Below, one piece after another: positions 9,700-24,670 of a DNA stretch of 64,000 nucleotides. The translations under genes were made by a program, and so were the position numbers. The number at the start of each line of letters is the position of its first letter. Position 1 is the stretch's first letter. Below the pieces are notes generated by a model. That model had not been told where the DNA came from, searched no databases, and saw only the letters and a list, made by a program, of their open reading frames with translations. Origin of the DNA: Qipengyuania seohaensis (GTDB lineage Bacteria; Pseudomonadota; Alphaproteobacteria; Sphingomonadales; Sphingomonadaceae); contig NZ_CP024920.1 in the NCBI RefSeq assembly GCF_002795865.1, forward strand, positions 124,001-188,000, written 5' to 3'.

Positions 9700-9782
9700 C
9701 GCAACCGCATTCCTTGATCCAAGTCCTCTGTCCGCCTAGAGGTCCGCCACGATTTCGCAAGCATTCACCAAGAGTTTTCCAA

Positions 9783-10853
9783 GTGATCTATCTCAATGCC
9801 CGTTTCACCGGGCAAGGCATGACCGGTGTGCAGCGCGTTGCCTATGAACTGGGGCGCAGGGTACTGGAACGCCGACCGGACATGCGCGCTCTGGCTCCGG
9901 TCGGGCCGCTTTCCGAGTATGCCTTGCCCGCCCAAGTGATCCCCTCCCCACTTCCCGCAGCGGGCGGGCATTTCTGGGAACAGGTCATTTTGCGCGGAAA
10001 GGTCGGCAGTGACGATCTGCTGGTCAATCTCTGCAGCACCGCGCCGGTCGGGGTGAAGCGCCAGATCGTCATGATGCACGACGTCAATTACCAGCTCGGC
10101 CCCAAGGGATATTCGCGCAAGTTCCGCTATTGGTACACCGCGCTTCAAGGACAACTGGTCAAGCGCGCCACCATTTGCACCGTATCGCACTGGTCCGCCA
10201 AGGAAATCGCCAAAACCTTCGATATCCCGGTCGACAGCATCACGGTGATTCCGAACGCTGCAGGTCACCTCGACGATGTCGAGGCCGATCCGGCAACCTG
10301 CGCGCGGTACGGCATCGATGGGCGCCCCTATGTCCTGTGCGTGGGAAGCGCCAATCCCAACAAGAATTTCGACACCGCCCTCGCGGCCTATGCCGGGCTG
10401 GAAAATCCGCCCTTCGACCTCGTCATCGTGGGCGGCAGCAATCCGAAGATATTTCAGGCCGAAATGTCGATGGTGAGCAAGCCCAACGTGCATCGTCTCC
10501 CGCGGATAAGCGATGCCGAACTCAAGGCGGTCTTCCAGGGAGCGAGTGCCTTCGTGATGCCGTCATTTCTCGAAGGCTTCGGCATTCCGGCAATCGAGGC
10601 CATGCATCTCGGCGTACCCGTCATCGCGGCCCGGGCATCCGCCCTCCCCGAAGTTTGCGCAGATGCGGCGCTATACTTCGATCCGCAAGATGCATCCGAA
10701 CTCGCACAGGCGATGAACGCGCTTACTTCGGACGCAAGTCTGCACGCGGACCTCGTGGCGCGCGGATATCGCAACGTGGCGAGATACGACTGGGATAGTT
10801 CCGCAGATCAACTGGACCAATTGATCGAGCGTGCCTACGGCAAGGTACAATAA
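9783..10853 (+). CDS. Glycosyltransferase family 4 protein
   Basis: A retaining GT-B glycosyltransferase of about 356 aa. The N-terminal acceptor domain starts VIYLNARFTGQGMTGVQRVA with the glycine-rich GT4 opening. The C-terminal nucleotide-sugar domain contains RPYVLCVGSANPNKNFDTAL and the E-x7-E region MPSFLEGFGIPAIEAMHLG. GTG at 9783 is preferred because it places the first beta strand at the N-terminus; an ATG at 9714 would add 23 Pro/Arg-rich residues. Donor and acceptor sugars cannot be deduced. It is the first of four co-directional genes running into the spike-base pair. Confidence 0.88.
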   Translation: MIYLNARFTGQGMTGVQRVAYELGRRVLERRPDMRALAPVGPLSEYALPAQVIPSPLPAAGGHFWEQVILRGKVGSDDLLVNLCSTAPVGVKRQIVMMHDVNYQLGPKGYSRKFRYWYTALQGQLVKRATICTVSHWSAKEIAKTFDIPVDSITVIPNAAGHLDDVEADPATCARYGIDGRPYVLCVGSANPNKNFDTALAAYAGLENPPFDLVIVGGSNPKIFQAEMSMVSKPNVHRLPRISDAELKAVFQGASAFVMPSFLEGFGIPAIEAMHLGVPVIAARASALPEVCADAALYFDPQDASELAQAMNALTSDASLHADLVARGYRNVARYDWDSSADQLDQLIERAYGKVQ

Positions 10854-10955: not shown

Positions 10956-12104
10956 TTGTCCCGCGACTACGATGGCAAGGTAGCGATCGTCCATGACTGG
11001 TTCCCGGTCATATCTGGTGCCGAGCGCGTCGTAGAGCAGTTCAACCTGCTCTATCCGCAGGCGGGCATCTACAGCCTGTTCGATTTCCTCACCGACGCTC
11101 AAAGAGCCGAAATCCTCGGCGACAAGGCAATCCACACGAGCAACCTCAACCGGCTGCCTGGGGTCAGCAAGTACTACCGTAGCCTTATCCTGCCTTGCAC
11201 TCAGGCGATCGAACGGTTCGACCTGTCCTCCTACGATCTCGTGGTATCCTCCAGTGCGGCCCTGGCGAAGGGGGTCATAACTGGCCCGAACCAGCTTCAT
11301 GTTGCCTATGTTCACAGCCCTGCCCGCTATGCCTGGGACCTGACCCACGAGTATATCGACAATATGTCGGGCACCTTCGGCGGCGTGAAGCGCGCGATCG
11401 CGCATTCGATGATGCACCGGTTCCGCAAATGGGATGCGCGCACTCCCAATCTCGTCGATCAGTTCGTCGCCAACTCCGATTTCATCCGCCGCCGGATCTG
11501 GAAGATTTACCGGCGCGAAGCCGAAGTCGTCTATCCGCCAGTCAATGTTGCGGACTTCGTGCCAAGCGAAGAGCCCAAGGAAGATTTCTTCCTCTTTGCC
11601 TCGCGCCTCGTCCCTTACAAGCGCGCCCCGATGGTGGTCGAAGCCTTCAACCGTCGACCCGATCTGAAACTCGTCGTGGTCGGCGGCGGCCCTGAACTCG
11701 ACCGGGTGCGCTCCTTGGCAGGACCCAATGTCGAAGTTCGCGGTCACGTTTCCTTCGCCGAGTTGCAGCGGCTGATGCAGAAGGCGCGCGCGTTTGTATT
11801 CGCCGCGCTGGAAGATTTCGGCATCGCGCCGGTCGAGGCACAGGCTTGCGGCACACCGGTGATCGCACTTGGCAAGGGCGGTACCGCCGAAACTGTCATT
11901 CCCCTGGGTTCGTCCGGCGCCAGCGGCGTGCTGTACGGGGAACAGACGCTGGAAGCACTGCTGGCAGCTATCGATACTTTCGTGGCGGAAGGCGCATCCA
12001 TCTCGTCAGAGGATTGCCGTGCGAATGCGGAACGCTTCTCGATCGAGGCGTTCCGGCAGAACTTCAGGAACACCGTATCGCGCGCCTTTGCCAATCACGG
12101 CTAG
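10956..12104 (+). CDS. Glycosyltransferase family 4 protein (WbaZ-like)
   Basis: A 382-aa GT-B glycosyltransferase. The N-terminal part KVAIVHDWFPVISGAERVVE and HVAYVHSPARYAWDLTHEY resembles WbaZ/mannosyltransferase-type GT4 enzymes. The C-terminal donor domain has YFLFASRLVPYKRAP-like spacing (DFFLFASRLVPYKRAPMVVE) and the E-x7-E motif LEDFGIAPVEAQACGTPVIA. The start is TTG at 10956, preceded by GGAG about nine bases upstream; the ATG five bases earlier is out of frame. It probably adds one sugar of the repeat unit on the cytoplasmic face of the inner membrane. Sugar specificity is unknown. Confidence 0.88.
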   Translation: MSRDYDGKVAIVHDWFPVISGAERVVEQFNLLYPQAGIYSLFDFLTDAQRAEILGDKAIHTSNLNRLPGVSKYYRSLILPCTQAIERFDLSSYDLVVSSSAALAKGVITGPNQLHVAYVHSPARYAWDLTHEYIDNMSGTFGGVKRAIAHSMMHRFRKWDARTPNLVDQFVANSDFIRRRIWKIYRREAEVVYPPVNVADFVPSEEPKEDFFLFASRLVPYKRAPMVVEAFNRRPDLKLVVVGGGPELDRVRSLAGPNVEVRGHVSFAELQRLMQKARAFVFAALEDFGIAPVEAQACGTPVIALGKGGTAETVIPLGSSGASGVLYGEQTLEALLAAIDTFVAEGASISSEDCRANAERFSIEAFRQNFRNTVSRAFANHG

Positions 12105-12188
12105 TCTCGGCCGCTTTCTGACTATTTCGTTTTCCTACAACCACTTCGTCTGATTATTGGCGCAGCTCCCTGAACAAGGAGCAGCCAG

Positions 12189-12452
12189 ATGGACAGATTC
12201 GAAGACTTTCGCGACAGCGTCGGGCACCCGTCGCGCTCGCCTTTCCCGATTGCGCCCAGCGACGACGACGCATTGCCCCTCGTTCCGAAGGGCATCTATG
12301 TCGGGACCGGCGGAGATGTCACCCTTCGGGGGGTCGATGGTGATCAGGACGTCACCTACCGCAACCTGCCCGACGCCAGCTGCATTGCGGTACGGGCAGG
12401 TTTCGTCCGCGCGACCGGGACTACCGCAACCGATCTGATTGCGGAGGTCTGA
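12189..12452 (+). CDS. GTA/phage spike base protein, RCAP_Rcc01079 (GhsA) family
   Basis: An 87-aa protein matching what I know of the RcGTA head-spike base family: APSDDDALPLVPKGIYVGTG, then GDVTLRG, a short turn, ITYRNLP-like VTYRNLPDAS, a VR strand and the conserved end VRATGTTATDLIAEV. In Rhodobacter capsulatus the homologue (rcc01079, GhsA) anchors a spike fibre to the particle head, and the spike binds the cell capsule. An AAGGAG Shine-Dalgarno stands eight bases before the ATG. It ends two bases before the next gene. No other capsid, portal, terminase or tail gene occurs in the window, so it is either the detached spike locus of a GTA encoded elsewhere or a relic. The family call comes from memory of the pattern and should be confirmed by profile search. 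Confidence 0.8.
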   Translation: MDRFEDFRDSVGHPSRSPFPIAPSDDDALPLVPKGIYVGTGGDVTLRGVDGDQDVTYRNLPDASCIAVRAGFVRATGTTATDLIAEV

Positions 12453-12454
12453 GC

Positions 12455-13924
12455 ATGAGGACGAGCGGCGCAATCGGCGGGGCAAATCCCGCATCACTTT
12501 CACGACTTGGCACGCCTACCGGCCTGCATTTCGAACCCTTGCATTTGCCGGACGAGTGGCTGGCAGGATGGCGGGTGGCCGAATGGCAACCTGCTGGTTC
12601 GATCGCGTTCGGCGGCGCGCATAATGTTGCAGCGATCGACGAGTCCGCTGCGGATATCTTCGACCGCTTCAGCGACGCACGCGTATTGCCGGGGACTGTT
12701 CTGCACGTTTCTCCCAGCGGGAACGACAGCTCGGGAACGGGTCAGCAGGCCGCGCCTTACCGATCGATCAACAAGGCAATCCGGTCTGCCAACGAGGCAG
12801 GACTGCCAGCAAGGATCATGATCGAAGCCGGCGCCTATTCGCGAGGGGCATGCCCGGGCTTCGCCGGCACCTCGCCCAGTGTCGATATCGCCTTTATCGC
12901 GCACGGCGGACGCGTCGTAACCGGCAGCTGGGATGAGACCGGGAATGCACCGGTCGATACGCAATACCCGAACACCCATGTGGTCGCGACAAGCAGCGTC
13001 GATCGCGTGCTGGACCGGTTGCGCCTGGACCGGGACGGCTTCCACCCGGAGTATATTCGCGTCGCGAGTGCCGCGATCTGCAATCGTGTTCCCGGAAGCT
13101 GGGCCTACCAGGACGGCAAGGCCTATATCCATCGTCACGACGGCGCGCCGGTCACGACCGCCAACACCTATTTCCTCCGGCCTAGCACGGCCGTCTGGTC
13201 CTTCGCATCACCGGTCAGCATCTATCTCGGGGGGAATGACGCCCTTTCCGGCTTCGATACCATCGGAGGCAATACGGGCGCTGCCCTCGTCTACGAAACG
13301 AGCGGATTGCCTGCGCAAATGAAAGCCCTGGTCGTCGAAGGATGCACGTTCCGCTACAATGGCGGCGCATGGTCGGTTCCCTCCGGAGGCAGCGGGGTCC
13401 GCGTGAAGAACCTGCACGGGTTAGCCCTGTTTTCGGATTGCGACGCCAGCAACAACACGCGCGACGGCTTCTCGGCCGGAAACGCCGTTGCCGGCGCGGC
13501 GACCCACATGGTGACGGTGAATTGCCGGGCAATCCGGAACGGTGACCGCGGGGCGGGTTACAACACCTCGCAGTCGGACAATGCCTACACGCTGCATGAC
13601 GACAGCATCGGTCTGGATCTCGCAGGACAATTCCGAGAGACGAGCGGCGGTGGCGTGAGGAACGTGGGGATCTCCATGGGCCTGATGATCGGGACGCATA
13701 TTTCCGACGACCGGGGCGACCGGATGGTTGGCGGCATCGTCGATCCAGGAGCGGTCGTCGCAGACGAGCAATCCCGGATCTGGCTCGACCGGGTAGCTCT
13801 TGCAATGCCGCCCGCGTCTGCCCCGATCAGGATCGCCAGCGGAGCAAAGGTCAGGTGTTACCGGACAGCGGCTTTCCGAAGCCCGCCGCAGGTGCAGGGA
13901 TCGCTCGAGGCTTACCAGGCGTGA
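12455..13924 (+). CDS. Right-handed beta-helix protein, candidate GTA head-spike fibre (GhsB position)
   Basis: A 489-aa protein without a signal peptide. After an N-terminal region of about 80 residues comes LHVSPSGNDSSGTG (83-96) and APYRSINKAIRSANEAG, the usual opening of pectate-lyase-like parallel beta-helices. Turn-rich repeats with Asn/Gly/Asp ladders continue to about residue 430 (for example VEGCTFRYNGGAWSVPSGGS and FSDCDASNNTRDGFSAGNAV). It begins two bases after the spike-base gene with GGAGG inside that gene, so the pair is translationally linked as rcc01079-rcc01080 are. The inferred role is capsule-binding or capsule-cleaving spike; a polysaccharide lyase of the EPS system is the alternative. 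Its last 74 bases overlap, tail to tail, the convergent O-antigen ligase gene. Confidence 0.8.
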   Translation: MRTSGAIGGANPASLSRLGTPTGLHFEPLHLPDEWLAGWRVAEWQPAGSIAFGGAHNVAAIDESAADIFDRFSDARVLPGTVLHVSPSGNDSSGTGQQAAPYRSINKAIRSANEAGLPARIMIEAGAYSRGACPGFAGTSPSVDIAFIAHGGRVVTGSWDETGNAPVDTQYPNTHVVATSSVDRVLDRLRLDRDGFHPEYIRVASAAICNRVPGSWAYQDGKAYIHRHDGAPVTTANTYFLRPSTAVWSFASPVSIYLGGNDALSGFDTIGGNTGAALVYETSGLPAQMKALVVEGCTFRYNGGAWSVPSGGSGVRVKNLHGLALFSDCDASNNTRDGFSAGNAVAGAATHMVTVNCRAIRNGDRGAGYNTSQSDNAYTLHDDSIGLDLAGQFRETSGGGVRNVGISMGLMIGTHISDDRGDRMVGGIVDPGAVVADEQSRIWLDRVALAMPPASAPIRIASGAKVRCYRTAAFRSPPQVQGSLEAYQA

Positions 13925-15290
13925 TCCCGGATGGCGCGGCTGCATAGCCATAGCTTGGCGCCGCACGCGGCCGCGCCCCTTTCCGTTCGATAATCGTGCT
14001 CATCGCCAGGCCGACGCCAACGAGCATCCAGAGAACCGGCATGGTTGAACCGCCGAGCGAATCGCTCGAAGAGTTGCTGATGATGAACAGGATCATGGCG
14101 ACCAGCACGAGACCGGCCGATCGGAAGAGCTGCCTGTTGTAGGCGCTCGCGTGAATTCCGAACGCGAGTTTCTTCGAGACCCTTATAGTCGAGTAGATCA
14201 CCAACAGGAAGAAAGCGACGATCAGGAGAAGACCCAAGATACCGGTTTCCAGCAGGTAATTGATGAAGACGTTGTGCGCGTGGGTGTAGTTGATGCACGC
14301 ATTGGCATTCCCGCCGCCGATCCCGAAAACCGGTTTTTCGAGCATGCAGTTGATCGAGTCCTGCCACATGCCACCACGCGATTGCGTGCTGTCGGCACGG
14401 TCCGGATTGGTGATGAACTCTTGGAGCTTGCGGTAGAAGTAGTTGTTGTAGGTCTTCAGGCCGAAAACGATTGCCGCAAGTCCTGCGACGGCCGCAATCA
14501 GGCCCGCGATGGCGCCGCCAAGCGCCTCTACTGCCCGGCCTTCACGCGCCGGCAACCAGAAGAACACCACCGGGATGATGAGAATTGCCAAGGCGATGTT
14601 CGTCTTCGATCCTGCCGTCACCAGGACGAATAACAAAGCCGCCATCACGACAAGCCACAATTTGCGGTTCAGGAGGCCGGGCAATTGCGCAAGCACCAGA
14701 GCCACCAGCGAGACCATCGCCAGCTGGTTCGGGTGCTCGAAAAAGCCGTTGCTTCGATAGGACCACAGATCCCAGAAAACCAGTTCGCCCAGCGGCTGGT
14801 AGAAATACCCGATCACTAGCGCGGGAACCGTCGCGACCCCGCCATAGAGGAATGCCCGGATGACCTTCCGCAAACGCTCGGCGTCAAGCGTGACGAATTG
14901 CACGAACGAGACGAGGTAGAGAATGCCGAAAACCCAGCGGCTCAGGAACCTGATAGTTAGAACCGGGTCCGGCGCGACAACCATGGATGCCATACCCACA
15001 AGGATCATCGCCGTACTGACCCAGACGATCGGATGCAGGGCCGTGCGGGTCGCACGCGGGATAGCATCACCGAAGACCATCCACTGGAACACGCAGGCGC
15101 TGAAGGCGATGGCGATGAAAATCTGGGTTGCCGAGACCTTGAAGAATTCCGGCCCGATCCCCCAGGTGAACCAGACGGCGAAGGTCGCCACGACGATACT
15201 GACAAATCCAACCCAACTCGAGATCGAGCGATCCGCCTGATCAATCAGCGGCAGGGTTTTCTTTGAGCTATAGGAAGGCGTTTGGTTCAC
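13851..15290 (-). CDS. O-antigen ligase/polymerase family membrane protein (first)
   Basis: A 479-aa inner-membrane protein with ten or more hydrophobic segments and the Wzy_C/O-antigen ligase hallmark: a large periplasmic loop at about residues 280-330 (SRGGMWQDSINCMLEKPVFG, IGGGNANACINYTHAHNVFI) followed by YLLETGILGLLLIVAFF. Such proteins polymerise or ligate lipid-linked repeat units in the periplasm. It is the last gene of the minus-strand EPS block and lies seven bases after the TPR-like gene. The C-terminus is a proline-rich cytoplasmic tail (PGKPRAIPAPAAGFGKPLSG) whose codons overlap the beta-helix gene. Confidence 0.88.
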   Translation of the reverse strand: MNQTPSYSSKKTLPLIDQADRSISSWVGFVSIVVATFAVWFTWGIGPEFFKVSATQIFIAIAFSACVFQWMVFGDAIPRATRTALHPIVWVSTAMILVGMASMVVAPDPVLTIRFLSRWVFGILYLVSFVQFVTLDAERLRKVIRAFLYGGVATVPALVIGYFYQPLGELVFWDLWSYRSNGFFEHPNQLAMVSLVALVLAQLPGLLNRKLWLVVMAALLFVLVTAGSKTNIALAILIIPVVFFWLPAREGRAVEALGGAIAGLIAAVAGLAAIVFGLKTYNNYFYRKLQEFITNPDRADSTQSRGGMWQDSINCMLEKPVFGIGGGNANACINYTHAHNVFINYLLETGILGLLLIVAFFLLVIYSTIRVSKKLAFGIHASAYNRQLFRSAGLVLVAMILFIISNSSSDSLGGSTMPVLWMLVGVGLAMSTIIERKGARPRAAPSYGYAAAPSGITPGKPRAIPAPAAGFGKPLSGNT

Positions 15291-15297
15291 TTCGCCC

Positions 15298-16485
15298 TCA
15301 ATCTAACGGAAGCACGCGAGGATTCGCAATCCAGCGGCTATCGGAAACGCCGCTTGGAGCGAACACGCGGATTTGAGTGAGCATGCATTCCGGTCCGACT
15401 ACGAACAGCCGGTAGAACGAGCCGTCCTCGAAAACGGCAGGGCCGAGTTCCATCGGGCGCGTAGGCAATGCGCAATCGGCCGAAAGCAACAGGTCGGGAC
15501 GCCCAGACACCGCTGCACTGCTGTTCCAGCCCAGCACATATCGTCCCGAGGTAAGCCGGACGTGCTGGTTGGTGAGGTTCTCGGCAGCGAAATTGCGACC
15601 GGTCACAGTGAGCCTGATTTGCCCGTCTTCTTCTGCGATACCGAGAGTCTGCGTGGTACGACGCTCCCGGCGCCATTCGAACGGAGCGCGGCCGCCAAAG
15701 GAGCTTTCCTTGATTGTCGAGAAATCGGCATCCCACAGCCCTGTCTCATCGACCGCTCCGGGCCCGCTCATCGCCGTCCATACTTCCCACCCAAGAAGAG
15801 GATTAACGGCATAGATCCGATCGGTTTCGCGCCGTGCGAATAATTCGGTCGGCCGAAAGTCATTGGAACTTGCTGACCGCAGGATTGGCAAGCGCGCGGC
15901 GATCTCATCCTCTGGAAGTTCGTGTAGCCCGATGATTAGATTGTCGCCCCAGCCCTCACCGGCCGCCATGGCCGCGCCTAGCGCTCTCCGCGAATCAGGA
16001 ACGTCCGCAATAACGACCAGCAATTGCCGGGTCACAGGGCTTCTGGGCTCTGCCCGGACCAGCGCTTCCATCCGGCTTGCGGCGATATCGTATTCGCCAT
16101 TCGCAAGCGCCAGCTGGACCGCGTTGCCCTGTGCCAGCAGATCGCGCCATCCGAGCGAGCTCGCAATCCGGAAGATATCGGCCGAAGCCTGGGCATTGCC
16201 CGCAAGCTGGTGCGCTGTGGCGAGTAGGGACAGGTTAGAGCGTCGAAGCGGGGCGTTGAGAACCAGCCGCTCGGCCGCTTCGAGAGCGGCCGAGCCTTCG
16301 CCATCCTCGATTGCGGAGGCGACCTCGCTACGTGCGTTCGCTATTGCGTAGGGCCACTGCTGGGTGACCGAAATCCCTGCACGGTCGGTCATGGCCGCCA
16401 CCGTGAGAACGGCAGCTGCAGCCAGGCCTGCGAGTAAGCTGGCCTTGCCGATGAGCGACAGGGTTAAATTAGCTGCCATACTCAT
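15298..16485 (-). CDS. Membrane-anchored TPR-like protein of the EPS locus
   Basis: A protein of about 395 aa with one N-terminal membrane segment (LIGKASLLAGLAAAAVLTVA). About 150 residues of short alpha-helical repeats resembling TPRs follow (EGSAALEAAERLVLNAPLRR, LATAHQLAGNAQASADIFRI). The C-terminal half is beta-rich and looks like a carbohydrate-binding module (DFSTIKESSFGGRAPFEWRR to the end). Position between the Wzc-like kinase and the O-antigen ligase suggests a periplasmic scaffold in polymer assembly. ATG at 16485 (or 16479) overlaps the end of the kinase gene by 11-17 bases. I do not recognise a named family. Confidence 0.75.
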   Translation of the reverse strand: MSMAANLTLSLIGKASLLAGLAAAAVLTVAAMTDRAGISVTQQWPYAIANARSEVASAIEDGEGSAALEAAERLVLNAPLRRSNLSLLATAHQLAGNAQASADIFRIASSLGWRDLLAQGNAVQLALANGEYDIAASRMEALVRAEPRSPVTRQLLVVIADVPDSRRALGAAMAAGEGWGDNLIIGLHELPEDEIAARLPILRSASSNDFRPTELFARRETDRIYAVNPLLGWEVWTAMSGPGAVDETGLWDADFSTIKESSFGGRAPFEWRRERRTTQTLGIAEEDGQIRLTVTGRNFAAENLTNQHVRLTSGRYVLGWNSSAAVSGRPDLLLSADCALPTRPMELGPAVFEDGSFYRLFVVGPECMLTQIRVFAPSGVSDSRWIANPRVLPLD

Positions 16486-18667
16486 AATAGCTGTATGAGT
16501 AGTCTGTGCCGCCTCCCAAGCCGAGACGTTTGGCCTTAGCGAAATCGAACTGGGTGAAGACGCCGCCGACGACGTTGGCTCCGGCACTGCTCAGGCGGCG
16601 CAGGGCATTGCGAGCGGCGCCACGATGGCTGTCTTCCGCCTCAACCACGAACACGGTCGCAGTGTTGGGGATGGCCGACAGGATCGGCGCATCGGCAAGA
16701 CCCATGACCGGCGGCGCATCCAGGACGACGAGATCGTATTGGTCTTCGATAGTTGCCAGCAGATTGACGAAAGCATGCGAAGCGAGGAGGTCGCTCGGAT
16801 TCATCGGAAGTGGACCGCTGGTCACAGCGCCGAAGGACTCGATATCGGTCTCGCGAACCACGCTCGATAGCGGCGCATCGGTCGTGAGCACGGTGACGAG
16901 GCCGGTGTCGTTGTCGGTCCCGATTGCTCGGTGAACTGAAGGACGACGCAGGTCGCAGTCGATCAGCAGCACGCGCTTTCCGCCATCTGCCATTGTCTTC
17001 GCGATACCGAAGGCAGTGGAGGACTTGCCCTCGCCCTGCCTCGTCGAGGTGACGAGCATGCGCGGAGGCAGGCCGGACGGCACTGCGAACTGCAGCGCGG
17101 TGCGTAGTGAGTAGAAGCTTTCCGTCAGCGGAGCCTTGCGATCCTCCATCGCCTCGATCGGGGATTCCCCATCCTTCAGCGCCGGAGTGATACCGAGCAG
17201 CTTGAGGCCGAGCTTCTCTTCCAACTCGTTGGCCGTGCGGAGGCGATCGTCCATCTGCTCGCGCAGGAAAATGACGAAGCCGGCAACACCTACGCCCGCA
17301 ATAAGAGAAAGGAGGAGGTTCAATAGCAGGTTCGGAGACGAAGGCTCGATGGGCTGCTGGGCAATGTCGATCTGCTGGACGTTGTTGCTGGTGATGTTCG
17401 CTTCTGCACTCAGGGTGCGGAAACGCTGGAGGAAGCCGTCGTAAAGCTCGCGGCTGCTTTCGACTTCACGCGTGAGGGTGTTAAGCTGCACGCTGCGGTC
17501 ACGCTCGGCCTGTGTATCGCCCTTGAGCGAATTCACACGATCCTGGAGCTCGGATTCTCGCTCCGCAGCGATTCGATAAGCATCCCGGATGGAAGCGCGG
17601 ACGCCGGCAGCCAGACGCGAGATCTGGGCATCGTACTCGTCGAGCTGCTTCTGCAGGGGAATGACGGTTGGATGCGTCGGCTGTTTGACCGCGAGTTCCG
17701 CCTCGAGCAGCGACTGAACCCGCGCGCGTTCAGCGATGAGATCCTGCATCGCATTGTTCTGCAAAGCCTCTGCGATTGCGTAATCTGGTGCCCTCGCGAC
17801 GCTATTCCAGCGACTTTCCGCTGCGATACGGTCGGTCCGAGCCTCCGCAAGTGCATCATTGTAGCGACCAAGGTCAATCGTAGTGATGGTGGTGTCGGCG
17901 ACTCCGGGGGTAGCCGACGGCAGGCGGACCAGCCCGGTGTTGCGCGCGTAGTCATTGGCTTCGCGCTCGGCGTTCTGAAGGCGCTCACGCGCTTCTTCGA
18001 GCTGGCGTGAGAGAAAATCGCGAGCGTAGGCGGTCTTATCGAGGCGGCGCTCGATATTGTAGCGCAGGTAACTTGCCACGAAGGTATTGGCGAACTGTGC
18101 CGAAAACGCAGGATTGGGACTGGTGAAGCTCACCCGTACAACGCGCGAATCCTGCGGCAAGCCGATATCAAGATTGTCCTCGATCGTTTCGAGCACTTCG
18201 TCTCGCCGGGCGAGTTCGGGATTGGGTTCATCTTCGCCGGGAGGATCGATGTTCATCAGATCGAGGAACTCATCGTTATCGAAAAGGCCCATTTCCTCGG
18301 CTACGCGTTCCGCCATGCGTCGGCTGCGGAGCACGTCTACATTGGTCTGTAGGAAACGGTCCGCGTCCTGGTAGGCTGCGGAGGCGGCCTGATCTTCGGC
18401 ATCGAGGATGCGCTGCTCTTCCTGGTCGATCTGAAGCGTTGCCGACGCCGTGTACATGGGCGTCATCAGGAACGTCACCGCAATCCCCAGCAAGAGGAAG
18501 GCGGCAACGATCCCAGCAATCAGCAGACGATACTGCCAGAGGCTACCGACGAGCCTACGGAAATCCAGCGACCCGGCAGTCGGCGCGCCATAGGCGTTAT
18601 CGCCCGGCGGGAGGATTATGACCTCCTGACTTGAATCCGTGGCAGGGCTAGAAGCGTGTGAATACAT
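16469..18667 (-). CDS. Polysaccharide co-polymerase with BY-kinase domain (Wzc/ExoP/GumC-like)
   Basis: A 732-aa protein joining a Wzz chain-length domain to a bacterial tyrosine kinase. TM1 is at about 48-68 and TM2 at about 447-468, with a long periplasmic coiled-coil between them (QLEEARERLQNAEREANDYA). The cytoplasmic kinase has Walker A STRQGEGKSS (541-550), Walker A' LLIDCDLRRP and Walker B VVLDAPPVMG. The C-terminus is a tyrosine cluster (GTDYSYSYYEYGS) where autophosphorylation would occur. It controls polymer length and export together with the Wza-like protein encoded immediately upstream, with which it overlaps by 20 bases. Confidence 0.95.
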   Translation of the reverse strand: MYSHASSPATDSSQEVIILPPGDNAYGAPTAGSLDFRRLVGSLWQYRLLIAGIVAAFLLLGIAVTFLMTPMYTASATLQIDQEEQRILDAEDQAASAAYQDADRFLQTNVDVLRSRRMAERVAEEMGLFDNDEFLDLMNIDPPGEDEPNPELARRDEVLETIEDNLDIGLPQDSRVVRVSFTSPNPAFSAQFANTFVASYLRYNIERRLDKTAYARDFLSRQLEEARERLQNAEREANDYARNTGLVRLPSATPGVADTTITTIDLGRYNDALAEARTDRIAAESRWNSVARAPDYAIAEALQNNAMQDLIAERARVQSLLEAELAVKQPTHPTVIPLQKQLDEYDAQISRLAAGVRASIRDAYRIAAERESELQDRVNSLKGDTQAERDRSVQLNTLTREVESSRELYDGFLQRFRTLSAEANITSNNVQQIDIAQQPIEPSSPNLLLNLLLSLIAGVGVAGFVIFLREQMDDRLRTANELEEKLGLKLLGITPALKDGESPIEAMEDRKAPLTESFYSLRTALQFAVPSGLPPRMLVTSTRQGEGKSSTAFGIAKTMADGGKRVLLIDCDLRRPSVHRAIGTDNDTGLVTVLTTDAPLSSVVRETDIESFGAVTSGPLPMNPSDLLASHAFVNLLATIEDQYDLVVLDAPPVMGLADAPILSAIPNTATVFVVEAEDSHRGAARNALRRLSSAGANVVGGVFTQFDFAKAKRLGLGGGTDYSYSYYEYGS

Positions 18668-19355
18668 TGAAGAACGGTGCCGTTGTGAGGAAGTCGCGAA
18701 ATGCGCCTTTTAGGGAAGAGAAGCCGACGACGACAACGTCGCCGCCGCGCAGGATCGGATCATCAGCCTTGCCGTTCCGGATATCCGCAAGATTGAATAC
18801 CGCGCCATAGCGCTCTCCATCCTCATTACGGAACACCATGACTTGGTCTAGGTTCGCAGTGCGGGTCGGGCTCTTCGCGAGCGCAATAACCTCGACCAAC
18901 GATGCCCGACCGTTGGTAAGTTCGTAACGACCAGGTTCCTCGACACTACCTTCGACCACCACAAAGCGGCTGGCCGAATTGGTCACAAACACGGTCACGC
19001 GGGCATCGCGGTAATAAGTCGCGTCGAGCCGCTGCTTGATTTCGCCAGTCAACTCTTCGGTCGTCAGTCCTGCGGCATCGACAGTGCCGATCAACGGATA
19101 ATCGAACCTCCCTTCCGCATCGACCGGAATGTCCGCGAACGAAAGGGCAGGTTCGTTGTAGACGGTGACCGTGAGCCGATCAAAAGGACCGACTCTATAG
19201 GTCACGACCTCACCGTCTTGCGAAATCAGATCATAAGCCGCTGCGTCACGGGCGAGCGACTGGGAAGGCGTCGTCTGACACCCTGCCAGAGCGAGGCTCG
19301 CCAAACACAAAAAGAGGCCTGCCCGGCCAAAAGGGTTTTTAGTTCCGTTTTTCAA
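18648..19355 (-). CDS. Wza/GumB-like outer-membrane polysaccharide export lipoprotein
   Basis: A protein of about 235 aa. Starting at the TTG at 19353-19355 gives MKNGTKNPFGRAGLFLCLAS and a lipobox LALAGC with the lipidated Cys at residue 26; the only ATG upstream (19409) would bury the signal peptide. A polysaccharide export (Poly_export) domain follows (VTYRVGPFDRLTVTVYNEPA) and then one SLBB-type beta-grasp domain (SRFVVVEGSVEEPGRYELTN). The length is short compared with E. coli Wza and similar to GumB. It forms the outer-membrane outlet paired with the Wzc-like protein. The start overlaps the preceding ligase gene by 17 bases. Confidence 0.9.
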   Translation of the reverse strand: MKNGTKNPFGRAGLFLCLASLALAGCQTTPSQSLARDAAAYDLISQDGEVVTYRVGPFDRLTVTVYNEPALSFADIPVDAEGRFDYPLIGTVDAAGLTTEELTGEIKQRLDATYYRDARVTVFVTNSASRFVVVEGSVEEPGRYELTNGRASLVEVIALAKSPTRTANLDQVMVFRNEDGERYGAVFNLADIRNGKADDPILRGGDVVVVGFSSLKGAFRDFLTTAPFFNVFTRF

Positions 19356-20679
19356 GGTGCGTCCCGTCCGAAAGTATCCAGGCCATAGCAGTTGAGGCCA
19401 ACACAGCAAGACTTATAGCCCGGAGAGGATAATCGACAGTCGAATGCAGGGCAATGACAATAAGGGCAACGATTGAGAATACCTCCGCTTGCCCGAGGCG
19501 TTCGCGCTTCTTCCACACCGACCACACTATCGCCACAATTGCCGCTGCCAGCAGGATTACGCCAGGCAATCCGGCTTCGATCACGAACTCGAGCCAGTCT
19601 TGGTGAGCCCTGTTCGCAGTCGTCTGGTCCACGACTTCCAGACGTTCGACAAGTTCGAATGAGTAGCGGAACGTGCCGACACCCATTCCCCAGGGCCAGG
19701 CTTCCTGAGCGAGATAAAATGAGTCCGGCCAGATATCTTGCGCACGGCCGCTGCTGAGGTCCGAGAACCGGTCAGCAAGCTTCCTCACCTGCTCGATCTG
19801 GAGCAATCCGAACACGAGCAAGGGAACCGACGCCGCGCCAAGCGCCGAACCGATTGCCCAGGTTCTCTTGTTGGAAGAGCGGGCAAAAGCGATGGTAACG
19901 ATGAGCAACGCAGGCACGAGCAATAGTGTAGTGCCGGCGCGCGAACCCGTCATGAGAATGCATACTACTAGGAAAAGTCCGGCAGCCGCGAAGGCAGGGC
20001 GCCACTTCCTCGAGCGCTTGTCCATGAAGGCCAAGGTTATCAGCGCAACTATTCCGATCACGAGGAATGTAGCCTGAGAATTCTGGTTGGCGAACAGGCC
20101 GCTTGGTCCGGCATCGATCGACCGGGGATGGATAAAGAATGCTTCGCCTACCAGCGCCTGCAGCGCCTCCAGCAATCCTGAGGCTACCGCCAGCAGGGCG
20201 ATTGCCAGAAGCACAGCCGGCACCTTGTCGCGCCGCAAGGTGTACGCCATCACGAATGCGGCAATTGGCGGCGTTAGGCTGGCCAAGCTCCACCAAGTGG
20301 AAGCAGGGTCGATTGATAGCGGCCAGGAGGGGAGACCGCCTCCGAGGCTTTGGAGGGCCGATGCGAGCGGCCCGCGCATAGGCAGTGCGGTCCATGCTGC
20401 GGCTGGCAGCGGGATCAGCTGAAGCGCAATCAGAAGCGGCAAGGCCGCCACAGCGATCCAGGCGGTGACCGGAAGCCTGCCGTCAAGAGCGTCTGGCTTG
20501 ACAGTCAGGAGCGCGAGCACTGCCAGAGCGACGAGGATAACGAGCCCTTCCGTGCCAACGGAAGGAACGCCGCCGCCACCCAGAATCGTGGCGAAGGACA
20601 AAAAGCCGATAAAAAGCAAACCGCTCAGCCCAAGATGCATCGGTTGCGACATGGGCCTGCGTGAACGTTTTCTTGGCAT
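19339..20679 (-). CDS. O-antigen ligase/polymerase family membrane protein (second)
   Basis: A 446-aa multi-pass membrane protein with about twelve hydrophobic segments. The family loop sits at about residues 320-365 (YLAQEAWPWGMGVGTFRYSF, then RAHQDWLEFVIEAGLPGVIL), preceded by GPSGLFANQNSQATFLVIGI and LMTGSRAGTTLLL, all typical of Wzy_C proteins. It is the first gene of the minus-strand EPS operon reading from about 20.7 to 13.85 kb. Two ligase/polymerase homologues in one operon suggest one acts as Wzy and the other as ligase or as polymerase of a second glycan; sequence alone does not say which. Confidence 0.88.
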   Translation of the reverse strand: MPRKRSRRPMSQPMHLGLSGLLFIGFLSFATILGGGGVPSVGTEGLVILVALAVLALLTVKPDALDGRLPVTAWIAVAALPLLIALQLIPLPAAAWTALPMRGPLASALQSLGGGLPSWPLSIDPASTWWSLASLTPPIAAFVMAYTLRRDKVPAVLLAIALLAVASGLLEALQALVGEAFFIHPRSIDAGPSGLFANQNSQATFLVIGIVALITLAFMDKRSRKWRPAFAAAGLFLVVCILMTGSRAGTTLLLVPALLIVTIAFARSSNKRTWAIGSALGAASVPLLVFGLLQIEQVRKLADRFSDLSSGRAQDIWPDSFYLAQEAWPWGMGVGTFRYSFELVERLEVVDQTTANRAHQDWLEFVIEAGLPGVILLAAAIVAIVWSVWKKRERLGQAEVFSIVALIVIALHSTVDYPLRAISLAVLASTAMAWILSDGTHLEKRN

Positions 20680-22682: not shown

Positions 22683-23276
22683 ATGACCGAGGCTGATGAG
22701 GGCGCCCGGCAGGATGGCTTTCGCCGAAGCGTGAGGATGGACATCGCCTTCTGGGCCGAACGGTGCCGTTCGCAGCCGGGGCCGGGATTTTTCGTAAGAC
22801 AATTGCTTCTCAGACCCGGTTTCCATTTCGTCTTCTGGCACCGGTTCGCACGCCTGCTTCGACGCGTCCCCTTGATCGGGAAGCCGCTGGCCCGCATCCT
22901 CATCTTCATGCTCGAGATAGCTTTCTCGTCCGAAATCGCCATCAGCGCCACGATCGGCGGGGGCTTTTATGTCCCTCATCCGTTCGGCATCGTGATCGGG
23001 ACGAACTGCAGGATCGGCAGGAACGTGACGATGCTGCAGAATGTGACCCTGGGCAACCGGTCGATGACAGAGCCGGAAACGCCAGTCATCGAGGATTCCG
23101 CCTACATCGGCGCAGGTGCAGCACTCATCGGGGGCATCACCATCGGACAGGGGGCGTCGGTTGGCGCAAATGCCGTTGTACTGCGCGACGTTCCCGCAGA
23201 TCAGGTAGCGGTCGGGAACCCGGCCAGGCTCCTGACTGATGCTTCATCGAAGAATGGGCCTGAAATCGGTCAATAA
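22683..23276 (+). CDS. Serine O-acetyltransferase-like hexapeptide acetyltransferase
   Basis: A 197-aa left-handed beta-helix acyltransferase. The N-terminal helical part contains RQLLLRPGFHFVFWHRFARL. The hexapeptide region has IGGGFYVPHPFGIVIGTNCR, NVTMLQNVTLGN, and ends with GASVGANAVVLRDVPADQVA and VGNPARLL, as in CysE/EpsC-type enzymes. In this locus it most likely transfers acetyl from acetyl-CoA to a sugar of the exopolysaccharide rather than to serine. It starts four bases after the GT4 gene and overlaps the convergent transferase gene by seven bases. Confidence 0.88.
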   Translation: MTEADEGARQDGFRRSVRMDIAFWAERCRSQPGPGFFVRQLLLRPGFHFVFWHRFARLLRRVPLIGKPLARILIFMLEIAFSSEIAISATIGGGFYVPHPFGIVIGTNCRIGRNVTMLQNVTLGNRSMTEPETPVIEDSAYIGAGAALIGGITIGQGASVGANAVVLRDVPADQVAVGNPARLLTDASSKNGPEIGQ

Positions 23277-24670
23277 GCGGAATCGTGCACGACGACACGA
23301 AGCGTCGCGAACAGTATTCTGATATCCTTGAGGATAGACCAATCGGCCAGGTACTCGAGGTCGGCCGCCACTCGGTCGGTCAGGTGCCGTTCCTCGTGCG
23401 TTGCCCCCCGGAATCCCCGCACTTGCGCCAATCCGGTCATGCCGGGCTTGATCTTGTGACGCTCCCAATAACGCGGATCGATATCCCAGTAGAGCCGTTC
23501 CTGCACACGACCGACGATAGCGTGGGGCCGCGGGCCGACCACGCTCATATGTCCTAGCAGCACATTGAAGAGTTGCGGCAGCTCATCGATCGACGTCTTG
23601 CGGATGAAATTGCCGACCCGGGTCACGCGGGGATCGTTCCGGCTGGTGACCATAGTCGCCGCGTCGTCCCTGAGGGCATGCGACATCGACCGGAACTTGA
23701 AGATATTGAAGGATCGGTTTCCCTGTCCGGTCCGCCTCTGAAGGAACAGTACCGGGCGGCCGTCCTCGATAAGGATTGCGATAGCGGCAGCCAGCAGGAT
23801 GGGCGACAGGAGAATGATCGCCACGCTGGCCACGAAGATATCGAACAGACGCTTCACCAGCTGCTGGCGCAGATTGAGGGCATTGGGTGTCACCACGAAG
23901 GTTCGCTTGCCTTCCAGGTCCGCGGTTCCCACGATCCCGATCTCGTTGAGAGCACGATCGAAAATCTCCCCCTGCACATCCAGTCCGCGAAGCAACTTGC
24001 TCCACTCGTTCCTTCGCTCGCGCGAACAAGACACCACAACTCGATCCATGCCGACCACGCTCTGGCTGATGGCTTCAAATTGAGCAGGATTGTTGAGGAT
24101 CTGCCCAATATCGATGTGGGTCACCGGCACATGGCCGAAGTTCTCGGATTGGTGAATTGCAACATCATCTTCGAAAACGATTACTCGATCGACGAAGGTG
24201 CCGGTACGCCTGCGATTTCGGCGCACGAGATAAAAGCGGAAGAGCGTGGCAATGATCGCCCCTCCGAAGAGGCCCATCGAAAGGCTCAGGCGCGAGATCT
24301 GGTTCGTAGCCTTGACTGCGAAGAGGAACAGAAGACAGATGCTCACGGCCGCGATGAGGCCTTGGGCAAACCCGGAAACCGACCTGGTATAGCTCACCAG
24401 CGCAGAGTTGCTGTAGGCACCGAAATAGGCCGCGCAGATCCAAAGAACCGGAATGGAGCCTGTTGCCACATTGAAGGTCGGATGCTCGACGCTCAAACCG
24501 TTCAGCCAGAGCGCAATAAAGATGCTCGCGATCATCGCGCCAAAATCGACCAGGATGAGCTGATATTTCTGAAATATACGCGTCCGCGGATGAATACCCT
24601 TGGGCTCTGCGGTGCTTAGCAACGCGATTGGCGCCGAATTTGCGATGGTCGAATTCTCGTTCATAATCAC
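23270..24670 (-). CDS. Exopolysaccharide polyprenyl glycosylphosphotransferase (WcaJ/GumD-like)
   Basis: A 466-aa initiating enzyme that transfers a sugar-1-phosphate from a nucleotide sugar to undecaprenyl phosphate. It has four or so N-terminal TM segments, a cytoplasmic nucleotide-binding-like middle domain, one further membrane hairpin (RLFDIFVASVAIILLSPILL) and the catalytic bacterial sugar transferase domain: GRPVLFLQRRTGQGNRSFNI, KFRSM, SIDELPQLFNVLLGHMSVVG and GPRPHA. It is monocistronic on the minus strand at the edge of the EPS locus. The start is ATG at 24668-24670 (MIMNENS) or two codons later. Sugar specificity is probably a hexose-1-phosphate. Confidence 0.93.
   Translation of the reverse strand: MIMNENSTIANSAPIALLSTAEPKGIHPRTRIFQKYQLILVDFGAMIASIFIALWLNGLSVEHPTFNVATGSIPVLWICAAYFGAYSNSALVSYTRSVSGFAQGLIAAVSICLLFLFAVKATNQISRLSLSMGLFGGAIIATLFRFYLVRRNRRRTGTFVDRVIVFEDDVAIHQSENFGHVPVTHIDIGQILNNPAQFEAISQSVVGMDRVVVSCSRERRNEWSKLLRGLDVQGEIFDRALNEIGIVGTADLEGKRTFVVTPNALNLRQQLVKRLFDIFVASVAIILLSPILLAAAIAILIEDGRPVLFLQRRTGQGNRSFNIFKFRSMSHALRDDAATMVTSRNDPRVTRVGNFIRKTSIDELPQLFNVLLGHMSVVGPRPHAIVGRVQERLYWDIDPRYWERHKIKPGMTGLAQVRGFRGATHEERHLTDRVAADLEYLADWSILKDIRILFATLRVVVHDSAY

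Follow-up and report, generated by a model that had tools for sequence, protein, structure and literature searches.

Why should genes for the head spike of a gene-transfer particle stand among genes for a surface polysaccharide? The question is raised by a gene pair of Qipengyuania seohaensis (contig NZ_CP024920.1), seen in a stretch of 64,000 nucleotides, here called the window, which covers positions 124001-188000 of a single-contig genome of 2.94 Mb. The first gene (12189..12452, + strand) encodes a protein of 87 residues; the second (12455..13924, + strand) lies directly behind it, after a gap of 2 nt, and encodes a putative spike fibre of 489 residues. A preliminary description placed both open reading frames (ORFs) correctly, and read them as the head-spike pair of a gene transfer agent (GTA), comparable to Rcc01079/Rcc01080 (GhsA/GhsB) of the Rhodobacter capsulatus GTA (RcGTA). 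The pair probably provides the resident RcGTA-like particle with its head spike, aimed at the polysaccharide of its own locus. This reading starts from a base of established family, a conserved pair with two genomic homes and two types of N-terminus, and separate upstream elements.

How would such a spike work? Five copies of the 87-residue base would sit on each five-fold vertex of the capsid, and one 489-residue fibre per vertex would be held there by an N-terminal anchor. The fibre would bind or cut a surface polysaccharide, and the polysaccharide recognised would be the product of the locus that houses the spike genes. Assembly would take place on the resident GTA, release would be by lysis, and the fibre body may be exchanged together with the polysaccharide genes. 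An open question in GTA evolution is whether the particles are directed at kin. If the reading is correct, a recogniser gene placed inside the locus of the polymer that it recognises, and changing along with that polymer, would be a concrete mechanism for kin-directed transfer, and through this linkage particle and target coat may co-evolve. The GTAs of Sphingomonadales would also gain candidate receptor-binding proteins, none of which was found described in the open-access literature.

The arrangement itself is not new. The available parts of two papers already place the spike genes of R. capsulatus next to polysaccharide genes, away from the main GTA cluster (PMC10218006, PMC7296036). The accessible part of a further paper describes receptor-binding proteins as products of ectopic GTA loci, and notes that some GTA genes can evolve faster thanks to a fragmented layout (PMC13420450). 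For the spike genes of Sphingomonadales, their two homes, a second anchor type and promoters of their own, no account was found in the open-access literature.

The spike base and its fibre

Is the 87-residue protein a true spike base? It matches the NCBIfam profile NF048002 ('spike base protein, RCAP_Rcc01079 family') with an E-value of 2.5e-26 and 91.8 bits against a cut-off of 28, which bears out the family membership first proposed. The Protein Data Bank (PDB) chain 6tb9, 'Head spike base Rcc01079', is a sequence match at 2e-5, and a profile built from 14 sequences reaches the same chain at 1e-18. In the AlphaFold model of the base the predicted local distance difference test (pLDDT) score is 92, and the sole Foldseek match at or below 0.001 is again 6tb9 (E 7e-6, template modelling scores 0.76/0.78). 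Because the curated profile, the sequence match to 6tb9 and the predicted fold agree, the protein is a bona fide member of the RcGTA head-spike-base family. It belongs to a subtype with the motif NLPDAS, type B below, and it is the only base above the NF048002 cut-off in the whole source genome. For the base, the ratio of non-synonymous to synonymous substitution rates (dN/dS) is 0.22-0.39 between distant relatives (three pairs) and 0.10-0.13 between close ones (three pairs, among them genomes that lack a full GTA).

The fibre has a beta-helix-like body that matches PHROG 16653, 'hydrolase', at 2.5e-81 over residues 59-466; its match to Pfam Beta_helix is below threshold (2.9e-4, 20.9 bits against a cut-off of 25.9). 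Similar bodies occur in 19 phage records, including phages of Arthrobacter, Gordonia, Rhodococcus, Caulobacter and Bradyrhizobium, and nine of the records cover at least 80% of the fibre, at 29.8-37% identity. For 12 of the 19 the likeness begins at residue 53-88, and for four at residue 21; thus the first 20 residues are not common to them. Named phages with such PHROG 16653 hydrolases are Arthrobacter Sarge, Gordonia Rofo and Caulobacter Cr30. A scan of viral contigs with the window fibre gave no match. About the first 21 residues (12455..12517, + strand), of the type SG-x-x-GG, are a candidate anchor onto the base, judging from the motif.

How does the pair compare with that of R. capsulatus? 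The base family and the neighbourhood of polysaccharide genes away from the GTA cluster are the same, and base followed by fibre is presumably also the order of Rcc01079/Rcc01080, going by locus tags. The window fibre differs in starting with SG-x-x-GG and not with alternating leucines, the bacterial order is another one, and the neighbours are Wzy, Wzz, export and glycosyltransferase genes. In RcGTA, an N-terminal fibre peptide of alternating hydrophobic residues and glycine binds five pockets of the base, according to the part of the structural paper that was available (PMC7296036). No match of the window fibre to Rcc01080 came from a PDB sequence search, in which the presence of full-length Rcc01080 was not checked; the two were not aligned. 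A further GTA-associated polysaccharide-degrading spike, the RcGTA tailspike TspA, is loosely attached to the tail baseplate and not to the head in the accessible part of its description (PMC13420450); the likeness to it is one of description.

Two genomic homes and two base types

Where do such bases occur? A base above the cut-off is present in 14 of 118 related genomes (the source genome counted), one in each. A wider scan with a single peptide pattern, over one genome for each of 84,980 species, yielded 114 relatives, of which the best 80 were used. Loci were classed with hidden Markov models (HMMs) of 20 gene families (11 polysaccharide, three type I secretion, six GTA), searched in six frames over about 10 kb; the models were derived from the classified loci themselves, and their labels rest on Pfam hits of representatives. 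All 14 base loci of the family set have at least two polysaccharide genes. Among the best 80 of the 114, there are 35 loci with at least two polysaccharide genes, nine with one, 25 in a GTA cluster and 11 with neither. Three genomes are common to both sets; without the duplicates there are 91 distinct loci, and nearly all of them carry Sphingomonadales titles. Of the 91, 46 are polysaccharide loci, nine have one such gene, 25 lie in GTA clusters and 11 have neither, and no locus combines the polysaccharide and GTA classes. Of 40 control stretches of 20 kb, none has two polysaccharide genes, six have one, and one has a lone TerL hit. A Fisher test of 46/91 against 0/40 gives 4e-10, a value that is indicative only because the loci are related by descent; that the controls were spaced along six genomes, all of the window's own family, weighs against leaning on it.

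Inside GTA clusters, 24 of the 25 bases follow the capsid frame on its strand, the base match beginning 24-273 nt behind it; the remaining locus (L052) has no capsid hit. A tree of the bases (88 columns, many unresolved forks) implies three or more switches of home into or out of GTA clusters, and a single GTA clade is rejected (approximately unbiased test, p-AU 0.0035). This alternation between a place behind the GTA capsid gene and a place in a polysaccharide locus is a surprising feature of the family.

Some loci of this survey stand apart. In four Sphingomonas genomes (L078, L085, L110, L111) the pair adjoins genes of type I secretion type by HMM (peptidase-C39 ABC transporter, HlyD and OEP). 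Two assemblies titled 'Bacillus sp. 2B10' (L073) and 'Actinobacteria bacterium 21-64-8' (L045) carry Sphingomonad-like spike loci, and are probably mislabelled or contaminated. The known sphingan genes gelS/gelR were considered as a possible spike pair; the base found in Sphingomonas ATCC 31555 (L068) is located in a GTA cluster instead.

The bases fall into two types. Type B, with NLPDAS or a close variant, comprises 17 of the 91, the window base included, and forms one clade (support 100/96); the other 74 are type A, among them all 24 bases that lie directly behind a GTA capsid gene. A start with M, D and F or Y in register is found in 74/74 type-A bases (25 of them GTA-located) and in the window base. 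The fibre start follows the base type: within the first 22 residues, SG..GG occurs in 15/17 type-B fibres, 2/74 type-A fibres and 40/1782 background windows, where both the base-type motif and SG..GG were defined after inspection of the sequences. The two type-B fibres without it are L030, which has a changed start codon and a frame that still reads the motif, and L032, which is one residue off. Several type-A fibres begin with alternating hydrophobic and small residues (LGFGF, LGLHL), resembling the RcGTA peptide.

Behind these starts the bodies vary widely: the 86 fibres with 120 residues or more fall into 19 single-linkage families. Some bodies are common to both types (L041 and L048, 31% over 493 residues). 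Others link a polysaccharide locus to a GTA cluster, as do L064 and L080 (35.8% over 257 residues) and L050 and L074 (28% over 307 residues), the polysaccharide-located member being named first. Varied bodies on two conserved fibre starts are a second surprising feature.

Could the pair be a polysaccharide-editing enzyme of the locus and not part of a particle at all? Pfam finds GDSL/SGNH or SASA esterase domains in seven of nine scanned fibres, two of the seven with an additional arabinofuranosidase-like domain, and no domain in the other two; the window fibre itself matches phage 'hydrolases'. Against this, a simple hydropathy measure finds no Sec-like start on the window fibre, in line with the preliminary description; among 63 fibres located outside GTA clusters, five have a hydrophobic run near the start. 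Moreover, the base belongs to a family of capsid-vertex proteins, and 25 bases among the best 80 of 114 sit in GTA clusters. An enzyme unconnected with any particle is very improbable.

Does the fibre follow the genes around it? The comparison allowed for likeness of the bases and was made on 44 loci, those of the 46 in the polysaccharide class whose fibres have at least 150 residues. Fibre likeness and the sharing of neighbour genes have a partial rank correlation of 0.215, and none of 2000 permutations was as high. Fibres are alike in 16 of 21 pairs with at least 30% of their neighbours in common, against one of 898 pairs with less than 10%. Much of this association consists of close copies, so that common descent may account for it. 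Thus the proposed co-variation of spike and glycan genes is present and is carried largely by close copies, and a tie between fibre type and neighbouring polysaccharide genes is weakly supported.

Upstream elements and the resident GTA

The window base is preceded by the promoter-like element TTTTCCTACA (12130..12139, + strand), 50-59 nt before its start, which fits the pattern TTTCCTA[CT] and may act as a promoter. The pattern stands upstream of 27 of the 66 bases located outside GTA clusters (13 of 14 in the family set) and of none of the 25 inside them. The same division is seen for GTTC-N7-GTTC or GAAC-N7-GAAC, which we take to be the alphaproteobacterial LexA box (20/66 and 0/25), and for AACC-N5-GGTT (11/66 and 0/25); all three patterns were first noticed in the very sequences in which they were counted. 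In 250-nt stretches before 240 annotated neighbours, TTTCCTA[CT] occurs once, the LexA-like box once and AACC-N5-GGTT three times, and in two of these three cases the divergent region is common to the neighbour and a spike pair. AACC-N5-GGTT also accompanies some of the GTAs: of the 30 best GTA matches among relatives, 13 have it no more than 1.5 kb ahead of TerL, one of them in the source genome. By eye, none of the elements resembles those of GafY and GafZ in Caulobacter, as given in the part of that study available (PMC11150451).

What else does TTTTCCTACA precede? It occurs five times in the source genome, the window pair included, and one of the sites is without a clear target. Together with AACC-N5-GGTT it precedes a 143-residue ORF and an overlapping 674-residue tail-spike-like protein (PHROG tail, 1.1e-5) at 1294318-1296764. 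These two genes (L208:6319-8765) are divergent from an adjoining glycosyltransferase gene and may be a second receptor-binding locus. With a LexA-like box it precedes a pilin-like ORF (recognised by eye) and TraE at about 378.7 kb (L211), and it also precedes a 109-residue ORF and a TraD/TrwB-type coupling protein at about 410.5 kb (L210). The distribution of the element suggests that conjugation and spike genes may be under shared control.

These patterns invite a wider proposal, which is tentative and rather doubtful: that the pair is a mobile recognition cassette of Sphingomonadales, with a fixed base, a conserved anchor, exchangeable bodies, homes between which it shuttles, and a GTA whose delivery is self-directed. 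The bodies would bind or cut polysaccharide, and the slots would be a place behind the GTA capsid gene or in polysaccharide loci, where a stress-type promoter (CTTTCCTACA, in many cases accompanied by a LexA-like box) would belong to the cassette itself. DNA would go to cells with the same locus, and the particle could carry the locus along. Type-B pairs would use a second anchor system, and a pair could outlive its GTA and arm other capsids. The element before conjugation genes would hint at one control circuit for several routes of gene transfer.

Is there a GTA for the spike to serve? As anticipated in the preliminary description, the genome has a main cluster elsewhere: an RcGTA-like head-tail cluster at about 1.683-1.697 Mb, 1.55 Mb from the spike pair. 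Its capsid matches Rcc01687 (6.3e-87), the DUF2460 part of its g12-like protein matches Rcc01695 (2.9e-42) and the middle part of the same protein matches the phage protein Gp64 of 9lc0 (6.5e-46); portal, hub, Rcc01698_C and TerL are also present. Behind the capsid gene there is no base; by eye, a 99-residue ORF of another kind stands there. The domain PF13547 (GTA_TIM) was not found in the source genome or in 118 relatives. The capsid and its neighbouring genes reveal the cluster, and therefore this absence was set aside and the idea that the genome has no GTA was dropped.

The g12-like gene showed a peculiarity of its own. In nine of 41 matched genomes (G130, G134, G135, G137, G138, G147, G155, G161 and G166, several of them Sphingobium) the match runs through one or two in-frame stop codons (TGA, and once TAG too), which may reflect a split gene, recoding or decay. 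The TerL match in G015, G028, G034 and G042 spans only about residues 1-157 (67-93% identity), as if similarly truncated.

What weighs against a spike of the resident GTA? The points that follow all do, beginning with the patchy state of the GTA among the 14 spike-bearing genomes of the family. With thresholds of 1e-60 for TerL and 1e-5 for the capsid and g12-like genes, all three are nearly full length in five (G000, G004, G008, G047, G068), present only in part in four (G001, G038, G039, G051) and not found in five (G013, which is 75% complete, G022, G033, G053, G057). TerL is found in eight of the 14 carriers and in 77 of the 118 relatives overall; there is no enrichment, and hence no positive association of spike and GTA within the family set. 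A present-day GTA role is thus not certain for every spike carrier.

Features of the pair itself point the same way. The fibre begins MRTSGAIGG, and the alternating hydrophobic-Gly (alternating-leucine, or star) peptide of RcGTA is absent; thus the preliminary identification of a GTA head-spike pair holds for the base family and the pair anatomy and fails for the fibre start. Structure prediction succeeded for the base and not for the fibre, whose model, made from two sequences, has a pLDDT of 29. None of the 17 type-B bases lies inside a GTA cluster. AACC-N5-GGTT and the LexA-like box are both absent before the window pair, and the 30 GTA TerL genes examined gave no LexA-like box over 1.5 kb upstream. 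Since TTTTCCTACA also stands before conjugation and tail-spike-like genes, the element is not GTA-specific. Where bases are less alike (ratio below 0.85), fibres are alike in four of 17 pairs with at least 15% common neighbours, against the one of 898; and the loci L053, L054 and L057 have the base and much of the locus in common with L055 and L056 and carry unrelated fibres.

Might the pair then be the leftover of a GTA that is being lost in the genus, without present function? Spike pairs that stand where GTA genes are missing are a surprising feature, and in nine of the 14 carriers the tested GTA genes were found in part or not at all; in five of these nine no HK97-family capsid was found at 1e-5. 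In G033, which is closest to the window and lacks a match to all three GTA genes, the start codon of the fibre is changed and its frame ends early, beside an intact base. In the source genome, however, all three tested GTA genes have open frames, as do the base and fibre genes, the dN/dS of the base is low in the close pairs, and TTTCCTA[CT] still precedes 13 of the 14 family bases. A functionless remnant is quite improbable. Beyond the family the GTA is better represented, in favour of the GTA reading: of 55 genomes with a base located outside GTA clusters 49 were examined, and 40 of these gave a match to the g12-like gene, one match being a fragment only and a fiftieth genome (L097) having been set aside as GTA-located; full-length matches among the 40 include L060, L072, L102 and L113, titled Erythrobacter or Qipengyuania.

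A further alternative is that the pair is the spike of a temperate phage, for example a P2-like one, left in or moved into a polysaccharide locus, and that it serves or once served prophages. In support of it, and as a further point against the GTA reading, a P2-like prophage of Novosphingobium umbonatum (L042, 7616-15044) holds a type-B pair between terminase and P2-type capsid genes. Phages also have relatives of the base, weak to fair: tblastn finds them in Pben1 (2e-5), RcapNL (0.03) and Cr30 (0.4), and in RcapNL and Pben1 the ORF after the base overlaps its end by one base. The solved base of phage Carin1 (8cjz) is reached by the 14-sequence profile (3.7e-4) and is the runner-up of the Foldseek search (0.011). 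These bases differ in being phage-borne, with 26.9-46% identity to the window base among 20 listed hits. Relatives of the fibre body occur in the 19 phage records; among phages with PHROG 16653, only those of Caulobacter also show a weak base hit, 20 kb away, by organism tallies. At 2.205 Mb the source genome carries another HK97 capsid, and an ORF about 3 kb off resembles an integrase by eye. Against a phage origin, six GTA/phage structural HMMs gave no hit over about 10 kb at 14/14 family loci (other phage genes were not sought), and the base dN/dS is low. A weaker objection is that the prophage base, as called, lacks the M-D-F/Y start, as do four other type-B bases. A spike that belongs to prophages is rather unlikely, and a head spike of the resident GTA is the explanation preferred here.

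The surrounding polysaccharide locus

The neighbours of the pair are as the preliminary description had them, with glycosyltransferase and polymerase (Wzy) genes on either side and no phage genes. By Pfam, seven of nine neighbour proteins are of polysaccharide type, one has no family and one has a weak TPR-like match only. None of the nine belongs to a phage family; linked phage head or tail genes are absent from the locus in this Pfam search and in that with the six structural HMMs over about 10 kb. The polysaccharide-type proteins comprise two glycosyltransferases, two Wzy proteins, and one each of Wzz, Poly_export and sugar transferase.

On the + strand, two group 1 glycosyltransferase genes lie upstream, at 9714..10853 (PF00534, 8.6e-29) and, directly before the pair, at 10956..12104 (PF00534, 4.8e-25). 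Beyond the pair the polysaccharide genes named here are on the - strand. A convergent gene for a protein of Wzy/O-antigen ligase type (13851..15290; PF04932, 5.8e-16) overlaps the 3' end of the fibre gene by 74 nt. It is followed by genes for a Wzz/tyrosine-kinase-type chain-length protein (16469..18667; PF02706, 1.5e-16), a polysaccharide export protein (18648..19409; PF02563, 7.2e-22), a second Wzy-type protein (19339..20679; PF04932, 6.4e-16) and a bacterial sugar transferase (23270..24670; PF02397, 1.7e-62).

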